Assembly: GCF_026162365.1 (NCBI RefSeq)
Contig: NZ_JAOANW010000006.1
Coordinates: 124,001 to 188,000 of the forward strand
Direction of reading: 5' to 3'
Length of the DNA: 64,000 nucleotides
Source of the DNA: Nitratireductor luteus
Lineage (GTDB): Bacteria > Pseudomonadota > Alphaproteobacteria > Rhizobiales > Rhizobiaceae
Positions 28,538 through 43,977 of the stretch are shown piece by piece (the stretch's first letter is position 1; every line of letters begins with the position of its first letter). The translations under genes and the position numbers were made by a program. Under the pieces are notes generated by a model. The model worked only from the letters and a program-made list of their open reading frames with translations. It did no database searches and had not been told where the DNA came from.

Positions 28538-29326
28538 TCATAGGCCGATGAGGCCAGGACTTGATGAAACCCCTTCAGTAAGCGAGCCTCCATCGGCGCG
28601 CAGCCCGCGGGCGCCCCGGCCGGAAAGCCATCGGGCCATGTCAGCCGCTTGCCCCATCAGCCTGGTCTCGGGCGCCTTGCCGAACTCGATCGGTTCCTGC
28701 CTGTCGGTGGGAGACAACAGAATAGATGTCCTGCCTGACCACGCGGCCGCATGATCCCGGATCAGCGCATCGATAAAATCCGACGGCATGTCGGCAAAAC
28801 GGCCGCCACTGTTCAGGTCCACCGCATGGAGCCAGAGTGCGCGTGCGCGGATTTCTGGTGTTTTTCTCAGCGCCAGCCGCCGGCCCGCCGCATCCTCCAC
28901 GCAAGCGTCCCAGTCAGCATCGCTCAGATCGCGCCATTCAACGTTGAGGTGAACCTCCGAATGGTCGAACAGATAACGCAGCGCGCGCGACGGCAGGGTT
29001 GCCCCAAGTTCGACATCGCCGCTCGCCACCTGCGCGACGCGCGGAAGGGGCTCCTTCCGGCCGTTCCGAGCCCAAGCGACTACTTCGCTCAGGATACGAG
29101 CGTGGTAGCCGATATGTGCGATGATATGGCGCCGCGACAATCCGGGCAGCGCGGAAGGCGCGTCGAGATCGGCATCCGACAGCTCGTTGAGGAGGCGTGC
29201 GAAATAGGCAGTGCCGCGACGCGCCCAATCGAGTTGGCGGACGGGTGCGGCGGCCGCATCGTATCGGGCGCCACTGCCCTGCCGGGCCCGAAGTGCAGCG
29301 CGCGCCTCTTCGATGCTCTGACCCAT
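28538..29326 (-). CDS. Maleylpyruvate isomerase-like protein, MDMPI/DinB-like family
   Basis: 262 residues of the DinB-like four-helix family that includes the mycothiol-dependent maleylpyruvate isomerase. N-terminal helix bundle with SRRHIIAHIGYHARIL (His67, His71) and the second block ALWLHAVDL (His167). In characterised members the metal is held by a His, a Glu and a His four residues on (ExxxH); here the Glu position is Ala163. It may therefore bind metal poorly or use another ligand such as Glu158. ATG 29326 overlaps the stop of the gentisate dioxygenase gene by one base, so the genes are co-translated. A second, unrelated isomerase lies two genes upstream; this protein may be redundant. 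Confidence 0.72.
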   Translation of the reverse strand: MGQSIEEARAALRARQGSGARYDAAAAPVRQLDWARRGTAYFARLLNELSDADLDAPSALPGLSRRHIIAHIGYHARILSEVVAWARNGRKEPLPRVAQVASGDVELGATLPSRALRYLFDHSEVHLNVEWRDLSDADWDACVEDAAGRRLALRKTPEIRARALWLHAVDLNSGGRFADMPSDFIDALIRDHAAAWSGRTSILLSPTDRQEPIEFGKAPETRLMGQAADMARWLSGRGARGLRADGGSLTEGVSSSPGLIGL

Positions 29327-30426
29327 CAATCGCCCACTTCCACATGGGTGCGGGCGAAGTTCAGCCGCTCCATGATCGGCGCATCGGAAAAGCAGAACAG
29401 ATCGAACTGCGTTTCGGCCTGGAGGGACCAGCGCACCCAGGACGGGATCACGAATAGGTCGCCGATATTGAGCTTGTGCCTCACGCCATCGATGACAACT
29501 GCGCCCTCTCCCTCGAACACCTGGAAGACGGACGAGCCCACCTCCCGCCGCGTCGGCGTTTGCGTGCCGGCGCGCAGGCGATGGAACTCGCAGCGGATCG
29601 TCGACATCACGTCGCCACCCGTCGTGGGATTGACATAGCGGATGGCGGCATGGCCCTGCTCCACCGTCGCGGGCTGCCCCTCCTCCTCCAGCAGGAGCTG
29701 CTCGGTCAGGGCGCGGTCCGTGTGCTCCCAGCGATAGGCGCCGATGGGCGAGCTGACGGTGTCGCTAAGCCCGGACAGGGGACGCAGGCCCGGATGGCAC
29801 CAGAGCCGCTCGCCCCGCGAAACGCGTGGCGTGGCGTAGTCGGTCACCCGGTCCGAGCCGAACTCGAAGAAGCCGACATCATTCTGCTGCGCAAAGGGGA
29901 TATCGAGCCCGTCGATCCAGGCCATGGGTTTGTCGGTGTCGTTGTGATGACCGTGGAAATGCCAGCCTGGCGTCAGGAGCAGATCGCCGCGGCTCATTCG
30001 CACCGGGTCACCATTGACAACGGTCCAGACCCCCTCCCCTTCGACCACGAAACGGAAGGCGTTCTGCGCGTGGCGGTGCTCAGGCGCGGTTTCCCTCGGG
30101 CCGAGATATTGGATCGCGGCCCAGAGCGTGGGGCTGACATAGGCGTGGCCGCCCAGCCCCGGATTGGCGAGGCCGATGGCCCGCCGCTCGCCGCCACGCC
30201 CAACCGGCACGAGTTCGCCGGACTGCTCCGCAAGCGGCAGCAGCTCCGCCCATTTCCAGATGTGGGGCACAGCTCGCGGCTTGGGATGAATCGGCATCAG
30301 GTCGCCGAGCTGGGTCCAGAGCGGAATGAGATGCTGCTCCTCGAATCCCTTGTAGAGGGCGCGCAGCTCCAGCGTATCCTCTGGTTGCATTTCGTTGGCG
30401 GGAGTGTCTTCGTTTTTGTCAGGCAC
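29326..30426 (-). CDS. Gentisate 1,2-dioxygenase
   Basis: Cytosolic ring-cleaving Fe(II) dioxygenase with two cupin domains, 366 residues, giving maleylpyruvate from gentisate. The iron ligands are His117 and His119 (APEHRHAQNAF) and His158 (GWHFHGH). As far as I can recall it closely follows salicylate 1,2-dioxygenase of Pseudaminobacter salicylatoxidans, with a two-residue offset: Arg81, Ala83 and Trp102 correspond to Arg83, Ala85 and Trp104 there. The residue equal to Gly106 of that enzyme is Ala104 here; a Gly106Ala change was reported to turn it into a conventional gentisate dioxygenase. So gentisate, not salicylate, is the predicted substrate. GTG start at 30426 with AGGAGG eight bases upstream. 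Confidence 0.9.
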   Translation of the reverse strand: MPDKNEDTPANEMQPEDTLELRALYKGFEEQHLIPLWTQLGDLMPIHPKPRAVPHIWKWAELLPLAEQSGELVPVGRGGERRAIGLANPGLGGHAYVSPTLWAAIQYLGPRETAPEHRHAQNAFRFVVEGEGVWTVVNGDPVRMSRGDLLLTPGWHFHGHHNDTDKPMAWIDGLDIPFAQQNDVGFFEFGSDRVTDYATPRVSRGERLWCHPGLRPLSGLSDTVSSPIGAYRWEHTDRALTEQLLLEEEGQPATVEQGHAAIRYVNPTTGGDVMSTIRCEFHRLRAGTQTPTRREVGSSVFQVFEGEGAVVIDGVRHKLNIGDLFVIPSWVRWSLQAETQFDLFCFSDAPIMERLNFARTHVEVGD

Positions 30427-30455: not shown

Positions 30456-31103
30456 TCAGGCAGCGTCCGGCTGGTTAGGGGGTGCCGCATCCCTGAAAGC
30501 GGGTATCTGGTCCAGCCGTTCAAAGATGCGGCCGATCGTCGGCCACGCCGACGTGCCGATTTCGAAGCGGCGGTTGTTCCAGACCTGCGCGTAAAGGCAA
30601 AGGTCGGCGAGCCCCGGCTTATTGCCATGACAGAGTTGGCCGGTCATGGGATCCGACGACAGCATCTTTTCCAGCGCATCGAAGGTGGTTTCGACCCAGT
30701 GGGTGAACCATTCCTTTTGCGCCGCCTCATCGGCGCCGAAGCGGTCCGCCAGATAGCCCAGCACCCGAAGATTGTTGAGCGGATGGACCTCGCAGGCGCT
30801 CATCAGCGCCAGCGCCCGCACCCGCGCCCTGCCATCGGGATCGGACGGCAGAAGGGCGGGTTCGGGATAGGTTTCCTCCAGCCACTCGATGATCGCCAGC
30901 GACTGCGTCATGATCGTGCCGTCCGGGCGCTCGAGCGTCGGCACAAGGCCGGCCGGGTTCATCGCCAGGTACTCCGGCGTTCGCGTATCTCCCCGCCGCA
31001 GGACATAGGGTACGTAGTCGTAGTCCAGGCCCTTGAGGTTCAGCGCTGCGCGCAGCCGCGTGGACGTCGATGAGCGGAAGAAATTGTGCAGCGTCAGGGT
31101 CAT
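30456..31103 (-). CDS. Maleylpyruvate isomerase, GST zeta type
   Basis: 215-residue glutathione transferase of the zeta class, converting maleylpyruvate to fumarylpyruvate with glutathione as cofactor (NagL-like). The N-terminal thioredoxin fold carries the catalytic SSTSTRLR (11-18), and the GLVPTLE cis-Pro and QSLAIIEWLEE blocks bind glutathione. The C-terminal all-helical domain has the short PLNNLRVLGYL stretch seen in maleylpyruvate/maleylacetoacetate isomerases. ATG at 31103 has AGGGAA upstream and starts two bases after the hydrolase gene stops. Maleylacetoacetate as substrate is possible but the neighbours point to gentisate. Confidence 0.87.
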   Translation of the reverse strand: MTLTLHNFFRSSTSTRLRAALNLKGLDYDYVPYVLRRGDTRTPEYLAMNPAGLVPTLERPDGTIMTQSLAIIEWLEETYPEPALLPSDPDGRARVRALALMSACEVHPLNNLRVLGYLADRFGADEAAQKEWFTHWVETTFDALEKMLSSDPMTGQLCHGNKPGLADLCLYAQVWNNRRFEIGTSAWPTIGRIFERLDQIPAFRDAAPPNQPDAA

Positions 31104-31105
31104 CG

Positions 31106-31801
31106 TTATTCCCTGGGGCCGATCTCGGTAACGATCTCGCCCAGCCCTTCGATGCTCACCACGCATACGTCGCCCGACACCAGTGCTCCGACGCCTGCCG
31201 GCGTACCTGTCATGATCAGGTCACCGGGCGCCAGCGCGATGGAATGCGACAGGAACGAGATGATCTCGGGCACAGACCAGATGAGCTCGGTCAAATCTGC
31301 GTCCTGCCTGGTCTCGCCGTTGACGGTGAGCCGGATCGCGCCTTTGTCCGGGTGCCCGACCTTGCCCACCGGATGAACCGGGCCGATGATCGCGGAATTA
31401 TCGAAGGCCTTGCCGAAGTCCCAGGGCCGTCCCTTGTCGCGCGCCTGGAGCTGCAGGTCGCGCCGGGTCAGATCGTTGCCGATGGCATAGCCCCAGACAT
31501 GCGTCAGTGCCTCCGCCTCGGGAATATCGCGCCCGCCCGTGACGATGGCGACGACCAGTTCCGCCTCGTAGTGGAAGTTCTCCGTCTGCGGCGGATAGGG
31601 AACGGTTTCGCCCGCGTCCACGACCGCGTCTGCCGGCTTGCTGAAGAAGAACGGCAATTCGCGTTCCGGGTCCTTGCCCATTTCGCGGGCATGGGCGGCG
31701 TAGTTCCTCCCGACACAGAAGATGCGCCGCACCGGAAACCTGTCCGGGCTGTCGGCAACTGCCACTGTCGCGACCGGCGCGGGAGAAAAGACGTAGGACA
31801 T
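31106..31801 (-). CDS. Fumarylpyruvate hydrolase, FAH family
   Basis: 231-residue member of the fumarylacetoacetate hydrolase family that splits fumarylpyruvate into fumarate and pyruvate (NagK-like). FCVGRNYAAHA opens the fold; the metal-binding acids are in FHYEAELV and in NDLTRRDLQ, and KAFDNSAIIGP plus GDLIMTGTPAGVG are the other conserved blocks. ATG at 31801 has AAGGAGA upstream. It completes the lower gentisate pathway in the same operon as the dioxygenase and both isomerases. Confidence 0.88.
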   Translation of the reverse strand: MSYVFSPAPVATVAVADSPDRFPVRRIFCVGRNYAAHAREMGKDPERELPFFFSKPADAVVDAGETVPYPPQTENFHYEAELVVAIVTGGRDIPEAEALTHVWGYAIGNDLTRRDLQLQARDKGRPWDFGKAFDNSAIIGPVHPVGKVGHPDKGAIRLTVNGETRQDADLTELIWSVPEIISFLSHSIALAPGDLIMTGTPAGVGALVSGDVCVVSIEGLGEIVTEIGPRE

Positions 31802-31843: not shown

Positions 31844-33808
31844 TTATTGCGCAGGGTGAGGAACGGAAACGGTGCTTTGCCGGTCCCGCCCCAGCAGCCA
31901 GAGCAGAACCAACGCGGCTAAACCCGCCCCGTTGATCCAGAGCGTTGCAGCTGCGAGAATGCCCGGCGGCAGCAACAGAGCCGCGCCCGCAAGCCCCGTC
32001 AGGATCCGCCGGACGATGCCGGCGGGGCCATGCAGCCAGCCGATGAAGGCGCTCGAGATCGCGTAGACCCCCAGGATCGCCGTCGCGACCGCGACCACGA
32101 TCTCAACCGGGTCGCCGATCAAGAGCAGGGCGGGCGAGAATACGAAGAGGAAGGGAATGATATAGGCGGTCCAACCGAAGCGCATTGACTCGAAGGCCGT
32201 CGCCAGCGGCGGAGCCTTGGCGATGGAGGCCGCGAAGAAGGCACCGATCCCGATGGGCGGCGTCACCATCGACATCATGCCGAGATAGAAGATGAAGAGG
32301 TGCGCGGCAATCGGCTCCACGCCCGTCTCGATCAGCGAGGGGGCGACGAGCACGGCGAGAAGCAGATAGACGCCCACGGTGGGCATGCCCATGCCGAGCA
32401 CGAGGCAGACTGCAGCGGAAATGAGCAATAGCAAGAACAGGTTGCCCTGCCCCAGATCGACCAGCGCGAACGTTACGGCAAATCCGAGACCGGTCACGTT
32501 CAGCACGCCGATAATGAAGCCGGCCGCCGCGGAAATCATGATGATGTCGATGATCGACTGGCCGCTTTCGACGGCGGCACTCCAGAGGTCGCGCAGCGAC
32601 ATGCGGGACTTGCCGTAGCCCATGAAAAGGCCGATCAGCAGGGCGGCACCGCCACCCCACAGAGCCGCGGTCTCGGCCCGCTGGTTGAACCAGAACAGCG
32701 CGGCGACAATTGCCGCAAAAGGCAGCGCGAAAACCCATCCGCGTGACAGGACGCGACCCATAGGCGGGATCTCCTCGCCCTCCACCGGCCTGATATTGTG
32801 CTTGGCTGCCTGGAGGTCGGCCTGCACATAGAGAGCGACATAATAGAGCAGTGCCGGCACGATCGCCGCCACCACGATTTCCGAATAGGGCTTTTGCAGG
32901 ATGTCGGCCATCAGGAAGGCCACCGCACCCATGACAGGCGGGGCGATCTGCCCGCCGGTTGACGCCACCGCCTCGACGGCTGCCGCCGTGGTGCGGCGGA
33001 AGCCGGAATTGATCATCAGCCGTATCGTCACCACGCCGGTCGCAACGATGTTCGACACGACCACGCCCGAGATGGAGCCGAACAGGGCCGACGCGACGAT
33101 GGAGATCTTCGCGGAGCCGCCGCGCCTGTGGCCCATGCTGGCGAGCGCGATGTCGTTGAAGAAATCAGCGCCACCGGAGCGCAATAGAAGCTGGCCGAAA
33201 AGGATAAAGGCAACGACGACGGTCGCAGCAACGTTGAGGGTGATGCCGAACAGGCCGTTAGGATCGAAGGCAAGATAGACCGCCATGCGCGGCGCCTGGA
33301 CCTCGCGGGTTTGCAGGATGCCCGGCACCAGATGGCCGATAAGCCCGTAAAGCACGATCGCCAGGACGACGACGACGAGCGTTATGCCCACCGTCCGGCG
33401 CAAGCCTTCAAGCACGAGGAGAAACAGAAGGCCGCCGACGATCAGCGCATCCCACGGCAGCATCATGGCGCTGGAAAGGAGGGCCGGATAGGCCAAGGCC
33501 ACATAGAAGGAAAGGCCGAGGCCGAGCGCAGCAAGGATCAAGTCCGGTATCGGCGGCGCACTGGTTGTGTCGTCCGATCGCCGTGCGCGGCGGACAAGGA
33601 ACACGAGCCCAAGGCTCAAGCCGAGGATCACCGCCAGGAACTGCTCGGTATAGTATGAATAGCCAAGCCGGGACGGCAGGTCAGCGGCCTGCGCCACGGC
33701 GAGCAGCGTGAGGGTGCCGGCGAGCGCATGAACCAGGTGCCGGACCCATGCTGGTCCGCTCACATCTTCCGGCGCACCGGATGCGATTTGCGGGGTGTTG
33801 TCGCTCAC
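31844..33808 (-). CDS. TRAP transporter fused permease (TAXI-TRAP type, DctQM fusion)
   Basis: Inner-membrane importer subunit, 654 residues with around eighteen hydrophobic segments: the small subunit is fused to the large one, as is usual for TAXI systems. Conserved DctM-like blocks are ASTGGQIAPPVMGAVAFLMAD and GMGMPTVGVYLL together with MVTPPIGIGAFFAA. GTG start at 33808 behind AAGGG. The receptor gene precedes it with a hairpin in the gap (33835-33858). Its position between the ring-cleavage genes and the activating fusion enzyme marks it as the uptake route for the aromatic acid. Confidence 0.87.
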   Translation of the reverse strand: MSDNTPQIASGAPEDVSGPAWVRHLVHALAGTLTLLAVAQAADLPSRLGYSYYTEQFLAVILGLSLGLVFLVRRARRSDDTTSAPPIPDLILAALGLGLSFYVALAYPALLSSAMMLPWDALIVGGLLFLLVLEGLRRTVGITLVVVVLAIVLYGLIGHLVPGILQTREVQAPRMAVYLAFDPNGLFGITLNVAATVVVAFILFGQLLLRSGGADFFNDIALASMGHRRGGSAKISIVASALFGSISGVVVSNIVATGVVTIRLMINSGFRRTTAAAVEAVASTGGQIAPPVMGAVAFLMADILQKPYSEIVVAAIVPALLYYVALYVQADLQAAKHNIRPVEGEEIPPMGRVLSRGWVFALPFAAIVAALFWFNQRAETAALWGGGAALLIGLFMGYGKSRMSLRDLWSAAVESGQSIIDIIMISAAAGFIIGVLNVTGLGFAVTFALVDLGQGNLFLLLLISAAVCLVLGMGMPTVGVYLLLAVLVAPSLIETGVEPIAAHLFIFYLGMMSMVTPPIGIGAFFAASIAKAPPLATAFESMRFGWTAYIIPFLFVFSPALLLIGDPVEIVVAVATAILGVYAISSAFIGWLHGPAGIVRRILTGLAGAALLLPPGILAAATLWINGAGLAALVLLWLLGRDRQSTVSVPHPAQ

Positions 33809-33871: not shown

Positions 33872-34837
33872 CTATTCGGAATCCGGCTGCTCGACGCCGC
33901 GCTCTTCGAAGAAGGCGATGGCGCCGGGGTGGTACTCCAATCCCGGGTAGCTCTTGTAGGCGGTCTGGAGATTGAGCGCCTTGAGCGGCGGATAGGCGTT
34001 ACCGATGGCTTCGGTGTTGTCGAAGATGACCGACAGGAAATCCTTGACCTGCTCATCCGGCACATGGCTGCCGGCCACGAGGATATTGTCCCACGTCACG
34101 AACATCATCGGCTCCTTGACGCCAACCCGCGGCGGTGCGGGGGTGACCTCGGAGAAATAAAAGGCCGGGCGGACCGCCTGAATTTTGGCGAGGTTCTCGT
34201 CATTGGCTTCGACGGTCAGGAAGCGCACGCCGCCGACCGAGGCGTCGATCTCGGCAACCTTCGGTCCGCCGACGGCGAAGAAGGCGCTATCGACACGCCC
34301 GGAAGCCATGTCGTCCGAGCCGCGGATCAATTCCGGCACCGGTACCTGCTTCACGTCATCCCAGCTCAGCCCGCCGGCGGCGAGGATGGCGGTGATGTGG
34401 GACCTTGCGATCGGGAATCCGTCCCAGCCCGAGGGCACGCTTTTGCCCGCGAGATCCGACACTGTGGTCAATCCGGAGCTTTCCTTCACATAGAGCCCGA
34501 CCGGGAAGGGATTGATGCGCGCAATGACCCGCAGGTTGGGCAACGCGGTACCATATTCGCCGCTGCCCGCGACCGCAGAAATGGCGTCGTTGACATCGTT
34601 GAGCGCGAACTCCGCGATGCCTTCGTTCAATGCCTGCATCATCTGTGCATTACCGCCGTAAGGCTGCACCACCATGCGCAGATCGCTGCTTTCGCGCGCC
34701 TGACCGGCAATGACGGACGACATGGTGTTCCACACCGATCCCTGTGGCGGGGTTGCGATGGAACTGACCTGCGCGGCGGCGGGCACGGTTAACCCGAGCG
34801 CCAAGCTGGCTGCCAATAAATAGTTGCTGATCTTCAT
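33872..34837 (-). CDS. TAXI family TRAP substrate-binding protein
   Basis: Periplasmic receptor, 321 residues, with a signal peptide (YLLAASLALGLTVPAAAQ). TAXI features: SSIATPPQGSVWNTMSSVIA opening, VVQPYGGNAQMMQALNEGIAEFALNDV, and GWDGFPIARSHITAILAAGGLS. These receptors bind acids such as glutamate, and in catabolic clusters aromatic acids. The gene begins 61 bases after the fusion enzyme gene ends and is presumably in the same transcript. Ligand inferred as a hydroxybenzoate. Confidence 0.83.
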   Translation of the reverse strand: MKISNYLLAASLALGLTVPAAAQVSSIATPPQGSVWNTMSSVIAGQARESSDLRMVVQPYGGNAQMMQALNEGIAEFALNDVNDAISAVAGSGEYGTALPNLRVIARINPFPVGLYVKESSGLTTVSDLAGKSVPSGWDGFPIARSHITAILAAGGLSWDDVKQVPVPELIRGSDDMASGRVDSAFFAVGGPKVAEIDASVGGVRFLTVEANDENLAKIQAVRPAFYFSEVTPAPPRVGVKEPMMFVTWDNILVAGSHVPDEQVKDFLSVIFDNTEAIGNAYPPLKALNLQTAYKSYPGLEYHPGAIAFFEERGVEQPDSE

Positions 34838-34898: not shown

Positions 34899-37643
34899 TC
34901 ACAGACTTTCCTCTTTCACTGGCAAGAGCGCTTGCCGGTCTATCTTTCCGGTGCCGGTCTTGGGCAGGTCGGCGACATACTCGACGATGCGTGGATATTT
35001 GTATGGCTGTAGCCGAGACTTGATGTAGGCGCGCAGGGTTTCGCTCAGTTCGTCACTCCCGGCTTTACCCTCGCGCAAACGGACCACGGCTCGCAGAGTC
35101 ATCCTGCGGTCTGCCATTTCGTGCGCCATCACGGCACATTCGTGGACGTCGGGATGCTCGTTCAGGCAGCGCTCCACCTCCAGCGGCCAGACCCACTGGC
35201 CCGAAACCTTGATCAACTCGTCGGCGCGCCCCTGGAAGTAGTAATAGCCGTCCTTCTCGATAAAACGGTCGCCGGTATAGAGCCAGTCTCCGCGCATGGT
35301 GTCGCGGGTCTTGTCCGGCCGGTTCCAGTAGCAGGGGGCCGAGGAATGGCCGCGCACGAACATCACGCCTTCCTCGCCGGGACCTGCCGGTTTTCCCTCA
35401 GGCGTCTCCAGGCGCACCTCATAGCCCGGGACGCGGGCGCCAGCGGAGCCGATGCGGTGGTCGTCCAGGGAGTTGGACAGATAGATGTGCAGCATCTCTG
35501 TCGAACCCAGCCCCTCGGTTGGGCCGTGCCCCGTCAGCGCCTTCCAGGAGTCATAGATTTCCTGCGACAGGATTTCAGCCGCCGACATGGACTGACGCAG
35601 CGAGCTCAGATCGCGCGCCTCGACACCTTCGGTCCGCGCCAGTGCCGTGTAGAGCGTCGGAAGGCCAAAGAGCACCGACGGGCAAAACTGCTCGATTGTA
35701 TCCAGTACCGCGTCGGGGCGCGGCTGACCCGGCAGCAAAAGCGTTGTCGCGCCGATGGAGAAGGGAAAGGTGATCGCGTTCCCGAAGCCGTAGGCGAAGA
35801 AGATCTTCGGCACCGAAAAACAGATGTCGTCGGCACGCAGCTTCAAAACGTGCTTACCGAAGGAGGCCTGCGTATAGGCCATATCGTGATGCAGGTGGAC
35901 AATCCCCTTGGGCCGACCGGTCGAGCCGGAGGAATACATCCAGAAGGCCATGTCGTCCGGGCCGGTGTCGGCACAGTCGAGCGTCTGCGGCTGTCCGTTC
36001 AGGAAGTCAGCGGCTGCGATGCGCCCTGCCCCTTCGGCCATGCCGTTGGCGATCACCACCTGTTCCAGCGCTGTGCCGTTCAGCGTCTCCGGCCCAAAGC
36101 GGTCCGCCAGGGATGCCTCGCATACAGCGATCCGCGCGCCGGTGTCCTGCAGGAAGAAGTTCAGGAGGTCGGGCGTGGTCTGTGTGTTCAGGAGCACAGG
36201 CACGAAGCCGGCGCGCACCGCCCCGAAGAAGGCCGCCGGATAGGCCGGCGTATCATCGAGGAAGAACGGGATGCGGTCCCCCCGCTTCAGCCCGGCGGCG
36301 ATGAAGGCGTTGCCCCACCGCGCCGCCTCTGCCACCAGTTCGGCATAGGTCAGTGTGCCGGCCGGCCCGATCACTGCGGGCTTGTCGGGATTGCGGGCGA
36401 GATTGTCCCACAGGATGGCGGAGCAGTTCGGGTGTGCAGCCCTGTCGAAGCCAAGTTCGACGGCACCGGGCGCATCGTCCTTTACCGGGTCGGCAAGAGC
36501 GCTGCCTTCCGCCGCCCTCTCGGCCTCGTAACGGGCCATAAACCCCGGCGCGATCTTGCGCAGACGCTCCATGTCCATCCGGCCGGAGCGCGTCAGGTAG
36601 TCGAAAGCGAAATCGACCGGCGGCAAAGCCATCTTCGCCGCAAAGCTCTCATACCAATTTGCAGAGGTGTTGGCAGCGTCGACAATCTTCTTGGCGACCG
36701 GCTGCCGCTCGGCCTGGTAGGCCGCAAGCGCCTCATCGACATCGTCATGCGCGGCCAGCGAGCGGACGAGCGCGATGGCATCCTCCATCGCCAGTCGCGT
36801 GCCGGAACCGATCGAGAAATGCGCGGTATGGGCGGCGTCGCCCAAAAGCACATGCCGCCCCGTGACCCAGTTCTGGCACCATAGCCGCGGAAACTGCCGC
36901 CACATGGACTTGTTGGTGATCAGCGGCGCGCCTTCCAGAACGTCGGCAAAGATCGTTTCACACAACCGCGCGCTCTGCGTTTCGTCCATGTCCGCAAAGC
37001 CGTATGCGCCGAAGGTGGCCTCGTCGCATTCGACGATGAAGGTGCTGCGGTTCGGGGAGAACCGGTAGTGATGCGCGTTCAACGCCCCCTTCTCGGTCTC
37101 CACGAAGGTCTGGGTCAGCGTATCGAAGGGGCGTTCCGTGCCGAACCAGGCGAAACGGTTGCTGAAATGCTCGAGCACCGGCGCGAATTCCGCCTCGCGC
37201 GAACGGCGGACCAGGGAGTTCAGCCCATCTGCTCCGATAATGAGATCCGCCTGCAATTCGTCAAGCGCGGTCACCGTATGCGAGAAGCGCATTTCCACGC
37301 CGACTGCTTGCGCCCGCTTGCGCAGGATCTCGATCAACTCCAGCCGGCCAATGGAGGCAAATCCGACGCCGTCGAGGATCACCTGCCCGGCTGGCAGGTT
37401 CAGCGTCATATTCCGCCAGCGCTCCATGCGCGGCGTCACAAGATCATGGGTCTCAGGATCGTCGGCCTTGAGGAAATCCAGCGCCTGGTCGGAGAAGACA
37501 ACACCAAAGCCGAAAGTCGCGCCTTCCGGATTCTGCTCGGTTACACGCACCCGCGCAGCCGGCAGGAAACGTCGCAGCAGGATCGCGGCATAGAGCCCTG
37601 CCGGACCTGCACCCAAGATCTCGATGCTGGACAGCCTAGCCAT
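34899..37643 (-). CDS. Fusion of aryl-CoA FAD monooxygenase and benzoate-CoA-type ligase
   Basis: 914-residue two-enzyme protein. Residues 1-380 are a group A flavin monooxygenase of the salicylyl-CoA 5-hydroxylase/2-aminobenzoyl-CoA monooxygenase type: GAGPAG (11-16), FGFGVVFSD (45-52), ADG (138-140), GDAAH (268-272). Residues about 400-914 are a benzoate-CoA-ligase-type enzyme: SSGSTGRPKG (571-580), GSTEMLH (713-719), YTGDRF (789-794), catalytic Lys900 in KTGTGKIDR. All catalytic motifs look intact, so one chain can activate the acid and hydroxylate the thioester. The old-yellow-enzyme domain found at this C-terminus in aminobenzoyl-CoA monooxygenase is absent. Substrate may be salicylate (5-hydroxylation) or 4-hydroxybenzoate (1-hydroxylation with NIH shift); both give gentisyl-CoA. 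ATG 37643 follows GGGAGGAG; an upstream GTG does not. Confidence 0.87.
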   Translation of the reverse strand: MARLSSIEILGAGPAGLYAAILLRRFLPAARVRVTEQNPEGATFGFGVVFSDQALDFLKADDPETHDLVTPRMERWRNMTLNLPAGQVILDGVGFASIGRLELIEILRKRAQAVGVEMRFSHTVTALDELQADLIIGADGLNSLVRRSREAEFAPVLEHFSNRFAWFGTERPFDTLTQTFVETEKGALNAHHYRFSPNRSTFIVECDEATFGAYGFADMDETQSARLCETIFADVLEGAPLITNKSMWRQFPRLWCQNWVTGRHVLLGDAAHTAHFSIGSGTRLAMEDAIALVRSLAAHDDVDEALAAYQAERQPVAKKIVDAANTSANWYESFAAKMALPPVDFAFDYLTRSGRMDMERLRKIAPGFMARYEAERAAEGSALADPVKDDAPGAVELGFDRAAHPNCSAILWDNLARNPDKPAVIGPAGTLTYAELVAEAARWGNAFIAAGLKRGDRIPFFLDDTPAYPAAFFGAVRAGFVPVLLNTQTTPDLLNFFLQDTGARIAVCEASLADRFGPETLNGTALEQVVIANGMAEGAGRIAAADFLNGQPQTLDCADTGPDDMAFWMYSSGSTGRPKGIVHLHHDMAYTQASFGKHVLKLRADDICFSVPKIFFAYGFGNAITFPFSIGATTLLLPGQPRPDAVLDTIEQFCPSVLFGLPTLYTALARTEGVEARDLSSLRQSMSAAEILSQEIYDSWKALTGHGPTEGLGSTEMLHIYLSNSLDDHRIGSAGARVPGYEVRLETPEGKPAGPGEEGVMFVRGHSSAPCYWNRPDKTRDTMRGDWLYTGDRFIEKDGYYYFQGRADELIKVSGQWVWPLEVERCLNEHPDVHECAVMAHEMADRRMTLRAVVRLREGKAGSDELSETLRAYIKSRLQPYKYPRIVEYVADLPKTGTGKIDRQALLPVKEESL

Positions 37644-37680
37644 GTCTCCTCCCAAACTCACTCGACAGATTGAGATTAGA

Positions 37681-37708
37681 AGGATAGATTGTTTTCCATA
37701 TTATGCAA
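37681..37708 (-). promoter_or_regulatory. Candidate promoter of the aryl-CoA/gentisate operon
   Basis: On the minus strand TTGCAT (37703-37708) and TATCCT (37681-37686) are 16 bases apart, ahead of the fusion gene. The region is only 85 bases and also serves the divergent thioesterase/IclR genes, so an IclR operator is expected here (ATTG and CAAT half-sites flank the spacer). Confidence 0.35.
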
Positions 37709-37728
37709 TGCTTTTTATGGAGCAGAAA

Positions 37729-38148
37729 ATGCGAACGGCGCACAGCCTTGATTATTCGATCAGTTTCGGCGATTGTGATCCTGCCGGAATCGTCTTTTAT
37801 CCGCACGTTTACGCATGGTTCGACCGCACCTTCCACGACTGGCTCAGGCGCTTCGGCGGGCATGGCGCGATTTGCGAAACGCTGGGAGCCATCGGTCTGG
37901 GGCTTATGGAAGCCGGCGCCCAGTTCCGTCGGCCGATGCGCGATGGAGACGTCCTGACCCTCACCCTTTCCGTCGAGGAATGGGGCCGCAAAACCCTGCG
38001 CCTTTCCTATGAGGGGCGTGTCGGCGGCCATGTCACGGTTGTGGGGAACGAGTTGCGAGCGCTGTTCAAGCGTACCGATAACGGTATGGTCGCTGCGGAA
38101 GTCGGGGCACTGCGCAGAATGGTGGAAGGTGATGGCCAAGGACGATAA
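37729..38148 (+). CDS. Acyl-CoA thioesterase, 4-hydroxybenzoyl-CoA thioesterase-like
   Basis: 139-residue hotdog-fold thioesterase. The catalytic Asp lies in FGDCDPAGIVFYPHVY, the signature of 4-hydroxybenzoyl-CoA thioesterase, close to the N-terminus. Predicted to hydrolyse gentisyl-CoA to gentisate and CoA, the step needed between the fusion enzyme and the ring-cleavage dioxygenase. ATG at 37729 has GGAG seven bases upstream; the frame extends further 5' without any site. Divergent from the fusion gene, and its end overlaps the IclR gene by 17 bases, so enzyme and regulator are co-translated. Confidence 0.85.
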   Translation: MRTAHSLDYSISFGDCDPAGIVFYPHVYAWFDRTFHDWLRRFGGHGAICETLGAIGLGLMEAGAQFRRPMRDGDVLTLTLSVEEWGRKTLRLSYEGRVGGHVTVVGNELRALFKRTDNGMVAAEVGALRRMVEGDGQGR

Positions 38149-38941
38149 GGGCGAGGGACAGACGGGTGGCATTCAATCACTCGACGCGGCATTGCGGCTG
38201 CTCGGCGCCATGATGGAACACCGCGGACCGGTGTCGCTGTCGGAGCTCGCCCGCGAGTGCCGCATGCCGCCCAGCAAGGTGCATCGCTATCTCGCCTCCT
38301 TTCAGCGAGCCGGTCTCGTGGAGCAGGCCGGCCGCTCCGGAAAATACGATCTCGGCCCCGGCGCGGTGACGCTCGGCCTTTCGGCGCTTGCCCGGCACGA
38401 TTTTGTGAACCGTGCCTCCGACGCCTTGCCAGATCTGTGCACGGAATCCGGACTGACAGCGCTGCTCTCCGTTTGGGGAAACCAGGGTGCGACAGTGATC
38501 CGCTGGGAGCGCGCCGCCTCGCCCACGGTCACTTCGATGGGCCTTGGGACCACGCTGCCCCTGCTCAATTCCGCTACGGGGCGCGCCTTCCTCGCCTGGG
38601 CGCCCCAGGCCCCGCTTCAGGCGATCCGCGCGGCCGAAATTCGCGGCGCGCGCAAGAATCCGGCCATCGCCCCGGATTTGGCGCCGACGGAGCGCGATCT
38701 CGAAAAGCTGGTCGGGACCATTCGTGCCCAGGGCTATGCCTCGGTGGAAGGCAAGTTCATACCCGGCCTCGTGGCCATCGCCGCTCCCATCCTCGACTGG
38801 CAGGGAGAAGCGCAGGCCGTGGTGACCTTGATTGGCACCGACCCGGGCGTTGTCCAGCCGGGATCGGAAGCCGTTGCGCGCCTCGTTGCCTTCTGCAAGG
38901 AGCTTTCTTTTGCCCCTATGACCTTGGCCGACGCGAAATAG
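38132..38941 (+). CDS. IclR family regulator
   Basis: 269-residue regulator: winged helix (about 12-75, LSELARECRMPPSKVHRYLASFQ) and GAF-like effector domain (about 90-255). ATG at 38132, GGAAGG upstream, starting inside the thioesterase gene. It sits between the gentisate and gamma-resorcylate modules but faces the 37644-37728 divergent promoter region, so control of the aryl-CoA/gentisate genes with an aromatic acid or its thioester as effector is likely. IclR members of aromatic pathways (PcaR, PobR) can act as activators. Confidence 0.83.
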   Translation: MAKDDKGEGQTGGIQSLDAALRLLGAMMEHRGPVSLSELARECRMPPSKVHRYLASFQRAGLVEQAGRSGKYDLGPGAVTLGLSALARHDFVNRASDALPDLCTESGLTALLSVWGNQGATVIRWERAASPTVTSMGLGTTLPLLNSATGRAFLAWAPQAPLQAIRAAEIRGARKNPAIAPDLAPTERDLEKLVGTIRAQGYASVEGKFIPGLVAIAAPILDWQGEAQAVVTLIGTDPGVVQPGSEAVARLVAFCKELSFAPMTLADAK

Positions 38942-38975: not shown

Positions 38976-40031
38976 TCAAGCATCGGAGCCATGGAATGCG
39001 TGCTCCAGAAGTTCACGGATGCGGGCCTCAGTGAGTGGCTCGGGGTTCCAGTACGGGTTCGACATCGCCTGGGCCACGGCCGGCTCGATGCCTTCCGCGG
39101 TCATGCCGATCTCCTTGAGGGACATCGGCGCACCAACGCGGCGTGCGAGGCCCTGCAAACCCTTTGCGGCGTCCCCTGCCCCGAGCGCGCGCGCCACCTT
39201 TGCCGCTGCCGCAGGTGCCGCCTCCGTGTTGTAGCGCATGGCATGGGGCAGGATGACGGCATGCGTTTCCGCATGGGGAAGATCGAACATGCCGCCCAGC
39301 GTGTGACAGAGCTTGTGGTGCAGCGCCATGCCGACCGAACCGAGGCAGATACCGCAGAGCCAAGCGCCGTAAAGCGCGTCCGACCGCGTATAGAGATCGT
39401 TGGGTTTCGCTACGATGCCCGGCAGCGCTCGGGCGAGTGCGGCGATCCCTTCCTCGGCCATCAGATCGATCACAGGGTTGCGGTCCTGCGCATAGAGCGC
39501 CTCGACGCCGTGGGCGATGGCGTTCATGCCGCTCACGGCGGAGAGCTTCGCCGGCAGCCCGAGTGTCAGCGAAACATCGTAGATGACGGTTTCCGGCAGC
39601 ACCTTCGGGTCGCGCAGCGTGGTCTTGCGGTCGTGCTCGGTCTGGCCAAGGATCGGCGTCATTTCCGAGCCTGCGTAGGTGGTGGGCACGACGAGTTGTG
39701 GCAGGTCTGTGCGCAGCGCAATCGCCTTGCCGAGGCCGGTCGTCGATCCGCCGCCGATGGCCACAATGCCGTCCGCGCCGCAGCGCTCGACCTCGCGCAT
39801 AGCCCGCTCGGTCACATCAATGGGTGTGTGCATGGCAGCTTCCGAGAAAATGCCGGCGGCAAGCGTGCTCAGACGCCGCGCGGTATCCTCAGCCATATCC
39901 CGCTGATGGGGCGTCGAAAGCACGAGCGAGCGCGTGACGCCGAGGCGCTCCACCTCGGGAGCAAGTGTGTCGAGCGTGCCGCTGCCGAAGATGACCCTCG
40001 TGGGAAGACCGGTATAAGTGAATGCCTGCAT
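38976..40031 (-). CDS. graC: Maleylacetate reductase
   Basis: 351-residue iron-containing alcohol dehydrogenase family enzyme that reduces maleylacetate to 3-oxoadipate. The nucleotide-binding GGGSTTGLGKAIAL and the metal region MNAIAHGVEALYAQDRNP followed by ALHHKLCHTLGGMFDLPHAETH show the maleylacetate reductase subgroup. ATG 40031 with AGGAGG upstream; the longer open frame beyond it is not supported. Last gene of the gamma-resorcylate operon, following the hydroxyquinol dioxygenase by 50 bases, and it provides the final step to the 3-oxoadipate pathway. Confidence 0.88.
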   Translation of the reverse strand: MQAFTYTGLPTRVIFGSGTLDTLAPEVERLGVTRSLVLSTPHQRDMAEDTARRLSTLAAGIFSEAAMHTPIDVTERAMREVERCGADGIVAIGGGSTTGLGKAIALRTDLPQLVVPTTYAGSEMTPILGQTEHDRKTTLRDPKVLPETVIYDVSLTLGLPAKLSAVSGMNAIAHGVEALYAQDRNPVIDLMAEEGIAALARALPGIVAKPNDLYTRSDALYGAWLCGICLGSVGMALHHKLCHTLGGMFDLPHAETHAVILPHAMRYNTEAAPAAAAKVARALGAGDAAKGLQGLARRVGAPMSLKEIGMTAEGIEPAVAQAMSNPYWNPEPLTEARIRELLEHAFHGSDA

Positions 40032-40081
40032 GTCAGCCTCCTGGCCTAGAGCGCCGTGCGTCCATTCGGACGCACGGCGCT

Positions 40082-41017
40082 CTATTTTCCTTGTTTTTCC
40101 GCATTTATGCGGACGCCAGATGGTTCCATCTGGCTGCAAAATGCTTTTGTCAGGACGAAATGCCAGTTCACGCTCCAGTAGGGTGCTGCGAGACCCGCAT
40201 CCTCGCCTGTTCCAGGCTGCTCCATGCACCGGAAGTCCGCTATCAGGCTCTCCTTTACGCCGAACACGGCGTCCTGATCGAGATAATCGCAGTCGGGCGG
40301 GAAGATGTGGGTGATGAGCGGATCGTAGCCTGGCGCGGTGACGATGAAATGGATGTGCGCGGCGCGGTTGGGGTGACGCCCGAGTTGGCCGAGCAGCTTG
40401 CCCACCGGACCGTCATCGGGGATCGGGTAGTAGCGTGGCTTGACGGAGCGGAAGCGATAGCTGCCGTTCTCGTCCGCAGTGAAGACGCCGCGCAGGTTCC
40501 AGTCCGGCTGAACGCCCTTCTGCTGCACGTCATAGAAGCCGTCGTCATTGGTCTGCCAGACATCGATGAGCGCGCCCTCAACAGGCTTACCTTCCGTGTC
40601 CCGCACGACGCCGCCCACCACCAGCGGCTCTCCTTTGCCGTCCAGGCAGATATTGGTGCCGCGCTCGTATCGGGGAGCTTCAGGCACGTAGAACGGGCCG
40701 AGGATCGTGTTTTCCGTGGCGCCGGACGGGCGGCGATGGTTGATCGCGTCGACCAGCATGGAGACGCCGAGCACATCCGACAGCAGGATGAACTCCTGAC
40801 GCCAATCCGTGCACATGTGGCCGGTTTTTGTGAGGAAATCGATTGCGGCCAGCCATTCCTCATGGGTGGGCTCCACTTCCTTCACCGCCGCGTGCAGATG
40901 GTGGACGATCGCCGCCATCACCTCACTCAGCCGCGGATCCACATCCGCGCCCATGCGCGCGTTGACCACTTCCACAGAGCTCTCCTCGGAGAAGAGAGGG
41001 TATTTGTTGGCCGTCAT
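40082..41017 (-). CDS. graB: Hydroxyquinol 1,2-dioxygenase
   Basis: 311-residue intradiol dioxygenase opening hydroxyquinol (1,2,4-trihydroxybenzene) to maleylacetate. Fe(III) ligands: Tyr162 (DGFYD), Tyr197 (RYYPIP), His221 and His223 (RAAHIHF). The N-terminal helical linker domain (about 1-100) and ENTILGPFYVPEAPRYERG are those of hydroxyquinol-type, not catechol-type, enzymes. Ten bases behind the decarboxylase gene. ATG at 41017. Confidence 0.9.
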   Translation of the reverse strand: MTANKYPLFSEESSVEVVNARMGADVDPRLSEVMAAIVHHLHAAVKEVEPTHEEWLAAIDFLTKTGHMCTDWRQEFILLSDVLGVSMLVDAINHRRPSGATENTILGPFYVPEAPRYERGTNICLDGKGEPLVVGGVVRDTEGKPVEGALIDVWQTNDDGFYDVQQKGVQPDWNLRGVFTADENGSYRFRSVKPRYYPIPDDGPVGKLLGQLGRHPNRAAHIHFIVTAPGYDPLITHIFPPDCDYLDQDAVFGVKESLIADFRCMEQPGTGEDAGLAAPYWSVNWHFVLTKAFCSQMEPSGVRINAEKQGK

Positions 41018-41027
41018 AATCCGCCTC

Positions 41028-42002
41028 CTACAAGCTGAAGAGCGCCTTTGCGTTGGTCCGGCCGATCTTGGTGCGATCCGCCTCGGAGATGGTGGCGCTG
41101 TCGAACCAGTCCGCCGCGTGGTCGATATTCTCGAACGGCCAATCGGTGGAGAAGAGGATGCGGTCCGAGCCGATCTCCAGCATGGCGTCGATCAGCGTCT
41201 GGGTGCGGAAGTTGCCGGAGGTGGTGATGTAGAAGTTCTCGTTGAAATAATCCGCGATACGCCGCTTTGCTGGATATTTCGGCGGCACCTTCACCCAGGC
41301 ATTGCGATTATCGATGCGCCACATCATGTAGGGCAGCCCCTCGCCCATGTGGCCGAGGATGATCTGCAGGCCGGGATGTTCGTCGAACAGACCCGAACCC
41401 ATCAGCCGCAGCGCATGCACCGCCGTTTCCTGCGCGAAGGCCCAGGTGGGGCCCATCAGCCAGGGATGGCCTTCGTAGATGCGACTATCCTCTGGCAGGG
41501 GATTGCGCGGATGCAGATAAAACGGCACGTCGAGCGCGGCGACCGTAACCCAGAAGCCGCGATATTGCGGCAGATCATAATAAAGCAGATCATTAGTGTC
41601 GCTGCGCTGGCTGAAACCGTTCACCAATGCGCCGACGAAGCCGAGATCCTTGACGCAGCGCTCCAACTCACGCGATGCCGCTTCCGGGTCCTGCAGCGGC
41701 AGGGCGGCAAAGGCGCGGAACCGGCTAGGGCGTTTGGCGCATTCCTCGGCCAGGGCGTCGTTCGCGCGGCGCGAGATTTCGACGGCCTTGCCGGTATCGG
41801 GGATTGCCTGAACGGCGGGCGCGTTGAGCGAAAGGATCATCATGTCGATCCCGTGCTGGTCCATGAGCCTCAGACGTGTGTCCTGGATATCGAGCAGCCT
41901 GCCTTTCAACTCTGTCCAATAGTCTCCCGGCACGAACCCCGCTGAATCCATCAGCGTTTCGGGAATGGCGAAATGCTCTTCGAGCGCGATCTTGCCTTGC
42001 AT
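41028..42002 (-). CDS. graF: Gamma-resorcylate (2,6-dihydroxybenzoate) decarboxylase
   Basis: 324-residue amidohydrolase-fold decarboxylase giving resorcinol from 2,6-dihydroxybenzoate. Residue positions match the well studied Rhizobium enzyme exactly: metal ligands Glu8, His10, His164 and Asp287, and catalytic His218 (ILGHMGE). The reaction is reversible in homologues. ATG 42002 has GGGAGGAAAC upstream; the longer frame to 42095 has no site and lies in graA. The full set of neighbours (resorcinol hydroxylase, hydroxyquinol dioxygenase, maleylacetate reductase) fits. Confidence 0.92.
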   Translation of the reverse strand: MQGKIALEEHFAIPETLMDSAGFVPGDYWTELKGRLLDIQDTRLRLMDQHGIDMMILSLNAPAVQAIPDTGKAVEISRRANDALAEECAKRPSRFRAFAALPLQDPEAASRELERCVKDLGFVGALVNGFSQRSDTNDLLYYDLPQYRGFWVTVAALDVPFYLHPRNPLPEDSRIYEGHPWLMGPTWAFAQETAVHALRLMGSGLFDEHPGLQIILGHMGEGLPYMMWRIDNRNAWVKVPPKYPAKRRIADYFNENFYITTSGNFRTQTLIDAMLEIGSDRILFSTDWPFENIDHAADWFDSATISEADRTKIGRTNAKALFSL

Positions 42003-42033
42003 GTTTCCTCCCTTGAGGTGTGTTCGAGCCGGG

Positions 42034-43257
42034 TCAGTACTGGCCCTTGGGTTCGAGGCCGAGCATGTGCTGGCCGACCATCGTTCCGACCGCATCCCAA
42101 TTCATGCTGATGTGGCGGCCGACCGCATTTGCGTCGCGCCAGGCACGCTGAACGGGATTTTCCAGATTGAGTCCCGTGCCGCCGGTCGAGGCGTTGAGCG
42201 CTTCCACGGCGCGCAGCGCAAGACTGACGGCGAACCCCTGTCCGCGGCGGCTGACAAGGCGGTCCTCCACGGTGAACGCGTTTCCCGATCCGGCCAATGC
42301 CTCAGCATTCGCGACGTCGCGCAGCAGGATTTCGCGTGCGGCATCGATGCTCGCCGCCGCTTCCGCCACCCGGAGCTGAATGGTGGGAAACTCGGCCATG
42401 CGGTTATTGCCGCCAGCCACTGCCCCGCGCGTGACGCGCGTCGAGATCGAGGTGACGTAGCTTTCAAGCGCGCCCTTGGCGGCGCCCACCGCAGCAGAGG
42501 CCAGGCAGGATGGGATGCCGGTCAGCAGAGGCATGTTGAACAAGGCATGACCTTGGTAAACATTGGCACCCGGCGTCCTTCCGCTGGTGGCCTGCGGGAA
42601 GGTCAGCACGCGATGCTCCGGCACCACCACATTGTCGAGCACGAGCGTCTTGGATCCCGTGCCGGCGAGGCCCACCACGTCCCATGTATCGTCGATCGTG
42701 TACTCCCGAGCCGGCACAAGCAGGAATGCTGGAACCGGCTTCTCCCCCTCCTCACGCCCAGGCAGTACGGCAGCGCACAAAGACCACTGCGCATTTTCGC
42801 AGCCGCTGGCGAAGGACCAGCGTCCCTCGAGCCGATAGCCCCCCTCGACGCGCTCGGCCATGGAGGTGGGCGCATAAGAGCCGCATAAGAGCGCGTCGGG
42901 GTTTTCAGCCCAGACATCCTCCTGCGCTGCCTTCGGGAACATGGCGAGCAGCCACTGATGCGCCGAAAGCAGGCACGCGACCCAGCCTGTCGATGCGCAA
43001 GAGGCGGAAAGCTCGATATTTGCGTCGACGAGTTCGGCGAAAGGCCTGGGCGAACCGCCATGGGCGGCAGGCTTTACCACGTCAAAGTAGCCGATCTCGC
43101 GCAGGGCCGCGATATTGGCCGCCGGCACGCGCCGCGTGCGCTCGGTTTCCAATGCCCGCTGCCGAAAGACTGGGGACAGTTCCGCAACGCGGTCCTTGAG
43201 CGTCCCGCCAATAACGGCGACGTCCTCCTTCCTGGCCTCTATAGCGCCAAGTATCAT
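42034..43257 (-). CDS. graA: Resorcinol 4-hydroxylase, oxygenase component
   Basis: 407-residue FADH2-using monooxygenase of the acyl-CoA-dehydrogenase fold (HpaC/HpaB-type partner systems), converting resorcinol to hydroxyquinol. Fold cues: ELSASCASTGWVACLLSAHQWLLAMFP, YRLEGRWSFASGCENAQW, and a C-terminal ASTGGTGLNLENPVQRAWRD, as in two-component phenol hydroxylases. ATG 43257 with AGGAGG. Needs the flavin reductase encoded 27 bases upstream. Order reductase, oxygenase, decarboxylase, dioxygenase, reductase defines the pathway. Confidence 0.88.
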   Translation of the reverse strand: MILGAIEARKEDVAVIGGTLKDRVAELSPVFRQRALETERTRRVPAANIAALREIGYFDVVKPAAHGGSPRPFAELVDANIELSASCASTGWVACLLSAHQWLLAMFPKAAQEDVWAENPDALLCGSYAPTSMAERVEGGYRLEGRWSFASGCENAQWSLCAAVLPGREEGEKPVPAFLLVPAREYTIDDTWDVVGLAGTGSKTLVLDNVVVPEHRVLTFPQATSGRTPGANVYQGHALFNMPLLTGIPSCLASAAVGAAKGALESYVTSISTRVTRGAVAGGNNRMAEFPTIQLRVAEAAASIDAAREILLRDVANAEALAGSGNAFTVEDRLVSRRGQGFAVSLALRAVEALNASTGGTGLNLENPVQRAWRDANAVGRHISMNWDAVGTMVGQHMLGLEPKGQY

Positions 43258-43284
43258 CGGTTCCTCCTAAACAGGTTGTGGTGA

Positions 43285-43794
43285 TCAGGCTGCGGGCTGC
43301 GAAATGCAGTACCGCGCGTCCTCGTAGAGAAGAGGCCGGGTTACATCGTCGACGAAGGCGTCGATCACCTGGCCGATAAAAAGTGTATGGGTTCCGTAGG
43401 GAACGGCGGCGACGCGCCGGCAAACCACCCGCGCATGCGCTCCCGCAAGCATGAGGACACCGGAGGCATGGCGCTCCCATTCGGCCGGGCGGAACCTATC
43501 CTCCGGTGCGACCTTGCCGCTGAAGGCATCGGACAGAGGCCGTTGCTCCTGCGCCAGCACGTTCACCGCGAAATTAGGCTGGCAAAGCACCATTTCGTGC
43601 AGGTAGGTCCGGTTATTGAGGCAGACGACCAGCGCTGGTGGTTCCATCGACACGGAGGTGACGGCCGTCACCGTCATGCCGTGATCGGCCCCGTCATTGC
43701 AGCCTGTGACTACGGTCACGGTGGCCGGGAATTTTCGCATCATGGCGCGAAAGCTGGTGCCAACGGTTTCGTCTGGAACGACGGTCAAGGTCAT
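43285..43794 (-). CDS. graD: Flavin reductase component of resorcinol hydroxylase
   Basis: 169-residue flavin reductase-like protein (HpaC/FMN-binding split-barrel family) that supplies reduced flavin to the oxygenase. MRKFPATVTVVTGC, VTAVTSVSMEPPALVVCLN and the FAVNVLAQEQ block are family landmarks, and a final THTLFIGQVID forms the last strand. GGAGGAGG precedes ATG 43794. First gene of the operon, divergent from the MarR gene. Confidence 0.88.
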   Translation of the reverse strand: MTLTVVPDETVGTSFRAMMRKFPATVTVVTGCNDGADHGMTVTAVTSVSMEPPALVVCLNNRTYLHEMVLCQPNFAVNVLAQEQRPLSDAFSGKVAPEDRFRPAEWERHASGVLMLAGAHARVVCRRVAAVPYGTHTLFIGQVIDAFVDDVTRPLLYEDARYCISQPAA

Positions 43795-43825
43795 GAGGCT
43801 TTCCTCCTCCCAATCTGCAAATTAC

Positions 43826-43862
43826 AATAATTGCATTTGCAAATGTTGTCTACACAATTATT
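43826..43862. promoter_or_regulatory. Candidate MarR operators in the graD/marR divergent region
   Basis: CATTTGCAAATG (43834-43845) is a perfect 12-base palindrome, and AATAATTG (43826-43833) is mirrored by CAATTATT (43855-43862). The graD start is 32 bases to the left. ACAATTGT (43968-43975) also abuts the MarR start. Such nested inverted repeats are typical MarR-family sites. Confidence 0.5.
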
Positions 43863-43977
43863 TTAGGGGAGGCGCGGAAGCTCGACGAGACGCTCGACCG
43901 GGCGGCGGCAGTGCATCGTCCCGCTGCTTGCATGGCGGGGCGGCAAGCGCTAACCATGCCCCACGCAACAATTGTGA

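Follow-up and report, generated by a model that had tools for sequence, protein, structure and literature searches.

A CehH–CehG-type gene fusion in Nitratireductor luteus and the apparent history of its fused and split relatives

What does a gene do that seems to carry two successive steps of aromatic acid catabolism in one chain, and how did the two come to be joined? The question is raised by a 64,000-nucleotide (nt) stretch of the Nitratireductor luteus genome (RefSeq assembly GCF_026162365.1, contig NZ_JAOANW010000006.1, positions 124,001–188,000), hereafter called the window, with positions counted from its first letter. A first-pass annotation made from the sequence had proposed a single polypeptide with an aryl-coenzyme A (CoA) hydroxylase at residues 1 to about 380, followed by an aryl-CoA ligase at about 400–914, and this description holds. 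The open frame on the reverse strand (34899–37661) contains no internal stop and encodes 920 amino acids from a GTG or 914 from the in-frame ATG at 37643. Pfam placed FAD_binding_3 (9–323), AMP-binding (413–773), and AMP-binding_C (822–900) in this order, all above their curated cut-offs, and no linker domain has been added at the junction (residues 381–400). On sequence comparison, the gene is best read as a fusion of CehH and CehG, and its product is likely to be a bifunctional salicylate-CoA ligase/salicylyl-CoA 5-hydroxylase, with the two activities in one chain.

Both halves are intact and under purifying selection. In an alignment of 58 fused proteins, including that of the window, residues G11/G13/G16, D139-G140, and G268-D269 were invariant, as were the S571-S572-G573 core of the YSSGSTG stretch, G713-S714-T715-E716, T790-G791-D792, R806, and K900, in agreement with the earlier statement that the motifs of both halves are intact; we take these residues to belong to nucleotide-binding and catalytic motifs. 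In comparisons with Sinorhizobium sojae and M. camelthorni, the ratio of nonsynonymous to synonymous substitution rates (dN/dS) of both halves was 0.059–0.064; over ten fused relatives, it ranged from 0.059 to 0.241. The ligase half scored 484.7 bits against the benzoate-CoA ligase family TIGR02262 (cut-off 375.25) and shared 35–38% identity with benzoate- and anthranilate-CoA ligases in structural alignments (38% with the benzoate-CoA ligase structures 4rlf/4eat), in agreement with the sequence search. The nearest solved relative of the hydroxylase half by sequence, among the matches listed, was VioD. None of the PDB entries among these matches spanned both halves, each covering only one. The whole protein scored 387 bits against NF006101, the bifunctional salicylyl-CoA 5-hydroxylase/oxidoreductase family (cut-off 1078), and the match covered only profile positions 3–387 of 768, that is, the N-terminal half.

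The relatives that bear names point to salicylate. For split relatives of the two halves on Agrobacterium and Salipiger plasmids, RefSeq gives the names cehH (salicylyl-CoA hydroxylase) and cehG (salicylyl-CoA ligase), and the Agrobacterium record (pAt1; locus L058 in our numbering) additionally names cehI, a gentisyl-CoA thioesterase. The halves of the window protein were 70–71% (hydroxylase) and 73–74% (ligase) identical to those of the cehH/cehG loci L058 and L059, and the window thioesterase was 46–51% identical to annotated CehI and lies in the same divergent position. The gene order IclR–cehI/cehH–cehG is identical in the window and pAt1, gentisate genes included: FAA hydrolase, isomerase, and cupin genes follow cehH–cehG in Agrobacterium. 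The Salipiger split pair has thioesterase and IclR genes in this same order and is followed by TRAP (tripartite ATP-independent periplasmic) genes. Judged from these comparisons, the closest described system is CehG/CehH/CehI, and not the Streptomyces Sdg route or the 4-hydroxybenzoate route with its NIH shift, which the first-pass annotation had cited. The window resembles it in its orthologous halves, gene order, divergent thioesterase, IclR gene, and gentisate genes, but CehH and CehG are encoded by two genes, spaced in the two named records by 105–107 nt to the first ATG and 114–116 nt to the annotated start, whereas the window has one 914-codon chain and thus no separate proteins for the two steps. 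A CoA-mediated salicylate route in Rhizobium sp. X9 was reportedly described by Zhou and colleagues in 2021, in a paper that PMC11335346 cites.

Other known systems are less similar. SdgC is named in PMC13215587. The Sdg route, which consists of the ligase SdgA and the salicylyl-CoA 5-hydroxylase SdgC, has the same proposed chemistry and a hydroxylase of the same family, but its proteins are separate, and its activating enzyme is of the 2,3-dihydroxybenzoate-AMP-ligase type, not the benzoate-CoA-ligase type. The anthraniloyl-CoA monooxygenase/reductase-type enzyme represented by NF006101 is also a fusion with the same N-terminal hydroxylase family, but its C-terminal half is an old yellow enzyme (OYE), whereas that of the window protein is a ligase. 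BadA benzoate-CoA ligase (4eat, 4rlf) and AuaEII anthranilate-CoA ligase (4wv3) share the fold and motifs of the ligase half at the identities given above, but both stand alone. No published fused hydroxylase–ligase chain was found among the open-licence papers and PDB matches listed, consistent with the earlier remark that no characterized enzyme of this domain order was known; a search of the same literature for the NIH-shift route listed no papers. The parts and the pathway are already known, and the fused chain seems not to have been described before.

Because the closest named relatives are salicylate enzymes, the substrate can be narrowed to salicylate. In the proposed pathway, the TRAP transporter would import salicylate, and the C-terminal ligase would convert it with ATP and CoA to salicylyl-CoA. 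The N-terminal FAD domain would then hydroxylate the ring para to the hydroxyl group (5-position) with NAD(P)H and O2, yielding gentisyl-CoA, from which the separate CehI-like thioesterase would release gentisate. Gentisate dioxygenase would open the ring, and the isomerase and hydrolase would lead the product into central metabolism. The substrate, regiochemistry, cofactor, and any channeling between the sites are all predicted here. The earlier proposal of an aerobic CoA-dependent path completed by a divergent 4HBT thioesterase and gentisate genes agrees with what the window holds: the thioesterase was recovered with Pfam, and the cupin, GST-type isomerase, and FAA hydrolase genes were all found.

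The earlier call for a search for fusions of the same order led to a recurrent architecture, not a singular one. We classified 116 loci containing both domains, of which 75 were fused (71 after the same-contig repeats L073, L086, L096, and L112 were removed) and 41 were split. From the underlying scan of GTDB contigs, the best 80 of 463 relatives were kept, a choice that favors fused loci of full length; the figure of 75 of 116 should therefore not be read as a prevalence. The fused loci were mostly from Alphaproteobacteria, and dozens of bacteria from sea and soil carry the fused version. Within the order, the full-length fused gene occurred in six of 297 genomes (N. luteus included and L014 excluded), and within the class, none of 385 genomes besides that of N. 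luteus contained it among matches to E 1e-140. L014 had appeared in the genome search as a fusion with one internal TGA and is actually two genes. Fused genes also occur in plasmid records of Sinorhizobium sojae (94% identity) and R. leguminosarum (approximately 78%), and the annotated plasmid records examined here mostly call them "benzoate-CoA ligase family protein". In some plasmids of the R. leguminosarum group (L140, 5941–8732; L141, 6043–8732), a frame change interrupts the fused gene and few of the usual neighbors match, whereas the strains of L057 and L117 keep it whole. L140 and L141 were rejected as clean fissions, their sequences reading instead as a frame-changed fused gene.

This distribution also bears on whether a sequencing or assembly error has simply removed a stop between two genes. 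One insertion or deletion would indeed join many of the split pairs, as hydroxylase stop and ligase start share 4 nt (NTGA) in 20 of the 41, and one fusion, that of Bradyrhizobium archetypum (L118), rests on a single draft genome. However, the same full-length fusion recurs at 51–95% identity in many independently sequenced assemblies, including the complete S. sojae plasmid (94%) and L060 (95%). In addition, the copies have diverged at synonymous sites, and the window junction retains no start methionine. The frame has no stop between the domains; the first-pass annotation had named a frameshift or stop there, on resequencing, as a finding that would refute the fusion. With so many independent fused loci, an artifact was rejected for the window gene, and we consider it exceedingly improbable.

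The new element here is the history of fusion and fission. Phylogenetic trees were constructed under LG+G4, without a mixture model. The first contained 106 rows, after ten of the 116 loci were dropped as repeats or near-copies (L064, L069, L073, L086, L096, L112, and L119) or because of an internal stop (L125), N letters (L114), or odd spacing (L097); later trees contained 72 ingroup rows with two outgroups, 50 rows, and 62 rows. Six changes between the fused and split states were required on the 106-row tree, all forced by branches with a support of at least 95 in the Shimodaira–Hasegawa-like approximate likelihood ratio test (quick search). On the 72-row hydroxylase tree, the fused label likewise had to change six times, with five of these changes forced, and the 62-row hydroxylase and ligase trees required six each. 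The support for the root was weak (66/60 in the 72-row tree). At least three independent fusions are apparent from these sequences: one in the large alphaproteobacterial clade, one in a clade of Beta- and Gammaproteobacterial metagenome-assembled genomes (L130, L131, L132, L134, and L136), and one in L118, with its single genome. L118 still has the ligase start methionine at its junction and grouped with split Bradyrhizobium-type pairs, specifically with L018 in the hydroxylase trees (99/89 with 72 rows and 100/93 with 62 rows) and with L017 and L018 in the ligase tree (95/85). L120 and the pair L012/L013 may represent further fusions. Horizontal transfer is likely, and the event count applies to the gene trees only.

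The split pairs suggest how the genes could have been joined. A stop/start overlap of 4 nt is a classical sign of translational coupling, and the fused junctions hold little beyond the two termini. The fusion probably arose where the stop and start of ancestral cehH and cehG overlapped by 4 nt, through a change of frame or a small deletion.

The split clade containing both cehH/cehG-named loci appears to have taken the opposite path. It formed a clade of its own (100/99 in both the 72-row and 50-row trees) that sat inside the fused rows in the concatenated and single-domain trees, and it grouped with the fused loci L072, L124, L076, and L082 with support of 100/99 (50 rows), 88/94 (72 rows), and, in the 62-row trees, 97/97 (hydroxylase) and 100/97 (ligase). 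When the fused rows (without L012/L013) were forced together apart from this split clade, the topology was rejected by the approximately unbiased test (p = 8.5e-6), for a group picked after an earlier tree had been inspected. The spacers before the likely ligase starts of this clade measured approximately 65–140 nt by eye; automatic start choice gave 9–110 nt, because upstream GTG, TTG, and ATG codons were counted. The simplest reading of these trees is that the named CehH/CehG pair is a secondary fission of the fused enzyme. As one clade appears to have been split again, fusion is suggested not to be essential.

These observations raise the possibility that the fusion is neutral, the activities being the same as when separate, with no gain from channeling and with fusion and fission drifting. 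This is compatible with the assignment as a salicylate-CoA ligase/salicylyl-CoA hydroxylase, and we give it about an even chance. The approximately six changes of architecture on the trees and the apparent return of one clade to separate genes with spacers fit such drift, as does the junction, which has no conserved linker module. D385 was invariant in the 58 aligned proteins and P386 and V387 occurred in at least 90%, and the junction dN/dS values were 0.22 (S. sojae) and 0.10 (M. camelthorni), with a junction dN above that of either half in all ten comparisons. The AlphaFold model of the fused protein had well-folded domains (mean predicted local distance difference test score 88.8) but a predicted template modeling score of only 0.58, which gives no sign of fixed packing; it does not fix the orientation of the domains or the distance between active sites, and neither supports nor excludes the channeling of the thioester that the first-pass annotation had expected from the fusion. 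On the other hand, fusion has arisen repeatedly, and the main clade of fused genes is large; 75 of the 116 classified loci are fused, although the sample favors such loci. A more far-reaching idea is that fusions formed repeatedly from translationally coupled pairs make up a family in which the acyl-CoA is handed straight from one active site to the other, with the Ceh pair as a secondary split; we regard it as rather doubtful.

The surroundings of the relatives bear on the substrate. Neighbors were counted in 63 loci, each 19 kb or longer (49 fused and 14 split), usually with 10 kb fetched on each side; the count omits L069, L073, L086, L096, and L112 and still holds near-copies, such as L063/L064 and L059/L090. 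An IclR relative was found in 41 of the 49 fused and all 14 split loci, mostly just upstream on the opposite strand, and a thioesterase relative in 30 fused loci (29 divergent upstream) and 12 split loci. A gentisate-dioxygenase match was present in 10 split and only 27 fused loci (three of the latter at 33–35% identity), so that gentisate genes do not always adjoin the fusion. Eight fused genomes chosen for having no dioxygenase match nearby all had a relative elsewhere: one a close relative (82%) and, in the other seven, a best match of 33–36% identity, which may be other cupin dioxygenases. Downstream of the fused gene in L098, L105, and L109, the next gene encodes a periplasmic binding protein, and L109 also has two ABC ATPase genes nearby.

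The patchy presence of gentisate dioxygenase genes weighs against a salicylate-to-gentisate role, and so do several other points. The X9 proteins are assumed to be the basis of the Ceh names in RefSeq. The ligase pocket stretches FFAYG and LHI match those of benzoate ligases and do not discriminate between substrates, and the ligase also matched the 3-hydroxybenzoate-CoA ligase HbdA (NF053567), with 364.2 bits; given this score and the benzoate-like pocket, the sequence alone leaves the substrate unfixed. Furthermore, a second system in the N. luteus genome (contig C40, L145 6944–11055) encodes a stand-alone hydroxylase, a 2,3-dihydroxybenzoate-AMP-ligase-type enzyme, a 4HBT thioesterase, and an Asp/Glu-racemase/arylmalonate-decarboxylase-like protein, and it might be the salicylate route of the host.

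The fused enzyme could thus perform the same two-step chemistry on another acid, such as 3-hydroxybenzoate, 4-hydroxybenzoate (with an NIH shift), or a dihydroxybenzoate; gentisate could be obtained from several of these. HbdA ranked third among the NCBIfam matches overall and, for the ligase half, directly behind TIGR02262, and a resorcinol/hydroxyquinol-type gene set adjoins the fusion in the window. Nevertheless, the HbdA score is far under its cut-off of 1000, the closest named relatives are salicylate enzymes, and hydroxyquinol/resorcinol-type genes are rare near the fusions (MAR in 2, HQO in 3, RH in 2, and FR in 2 of 49), and we regard another acid as improbable. Membership in HbdA or NF006101 was rejected, both scores lying under the cut-offs. 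Anthranilate was also set aside as the substrate: the N. luteus genome encodes a 763-amino-acid hydroxylase/OYE protein (1277 bits to NF006101) close to genes for a ligase and for acyl-CoA dehydrogenase-like and kynureninase-like proteins, a presumptive anthranilate-type system, and therefore anthranilate is probably served elsewhere. Salicylate remains the likely substrate of the fused enzyme.

The features of the locus are listed in Table 1. The thioesterase frame is open from 37624, and its most probable start is the ATG at 37729, giving 139 amino acids, because annotated CehI has 134 (record coordinates 14510–14914) and a start at 37624 would create a 20-nt overlap with the hydroxylase gene. 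The double cupin had the gentisate 1,2-dioxygenase equivalog TIGR02272 as its best family match, at 272.4 bits and under the cut-off of 442.1, and its context suggests a role as gentisate dioxygenase.

Table 1. Fused gene and neighboring features in the window
Feature	Coordinates	Strand	Basis
Fused gene, CehH-type salicylyl-CoA hydroxylase + CehG-type salicylate-CoA ligase (putative)	34899..37643	-	914 aa; single frame, Pfam + NCBIfam domains
Hydroxylase half, residues 1-380 (FAD_binding_3)	36504..37643	-	PF01494 at 9-323; NF006101 N-terminal half, 387 bits
Junction, residues 381-400	36444..36503	-	Hydroxylase end directly joined to ligase N-terminal tail (DPV...G.EIGF)
Ligase half, residues 401-914 (ANL family)	34902..36443	-	TIGR02262; benzoate-CoA ligase structures 4rlf/4eat
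Divergent 4HBT thioesterase, CehI-like (putative gentisyl-CoA thioesterase)	37729..38148	+	PF03061, PF13279; 46-51% identity to annotated CehI
IclR-type regulator	38132..38941	+	PF09339, PF01614
TAXI-type TRAP solute-binding protein	33872..34837	-	TIGR02122
TRAP fused permease	31844..33808	-	TIGR02123
FAA-hydrolase family protein	31106..31801	-	PF01557; predicted fumarylpyruvate hydrolase
Zeta-GST isomerase	30456..31103	-	TIGR01262 (maleylacetoacetate/maleylpyruvate-isomerase type), 252.6 bits (cut-off 171.05); predicted maleylpyruvate isomerase
Gentisate 1,2-dioxygenase-like double cupin	29326..30426	-	TIGR02272; Cupin_2, two stretches

The adjoining hydroxyquinol/resorcinol-type set (38976–44427) includes an intradiol dioxygenase, an HsaA-like flavin monooxygenase, a flavin reductase, and a MarR protein, as well as an Fe-ADH protein that we take to be maleylacetate reductase-like and an Amidohydro_2 protein that is presumably gamma-resorcylate decarboxylase-like. 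Close copies of this set adjoin the fusion only in L056 and L060 among the 63 long loci. Elsewhere in the window, a further AMP-forming ligase (55756–57153; L006) is 31% identical to the ligase half, and a LysR-type protein of 397 amino acids (25723–26916), whose extra N-terminal region also matches LysR models, apparently has two DNA-binding domains.

Salicylate is a plant defense hormone and an intermediate in the breakdown of naphthalene and carbaryl. In one record, the Ceh pair adjoins what look like pollutant-degradation genes; the pAt1 cluster is also annotated with a 2-hydroxychromene-2-carboxylate isomerase, a dihydrodipicolinate-synthase family protein, an aldehyde dehydrogenase, and a flavin hydroxylase with a flavin reductase, which we take to resemble a naphthol-to-salicylate set. 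In rhizobia and roseobacters, the label "benzoate-CoA ligase family protein" hides the hydroxylase half and the likely salicylate role of the fused gene. If the idea of direct transfer between the sites were true, comparing the fused and split orthologues would amount to a natural experiment on the need to join the two steps of a CoA-activated ring hydroxylation. Fused and apparently re-split orthologues with the same neighbors would offer a direct comparison of what the covalent linkage does for a CoA intermediate.

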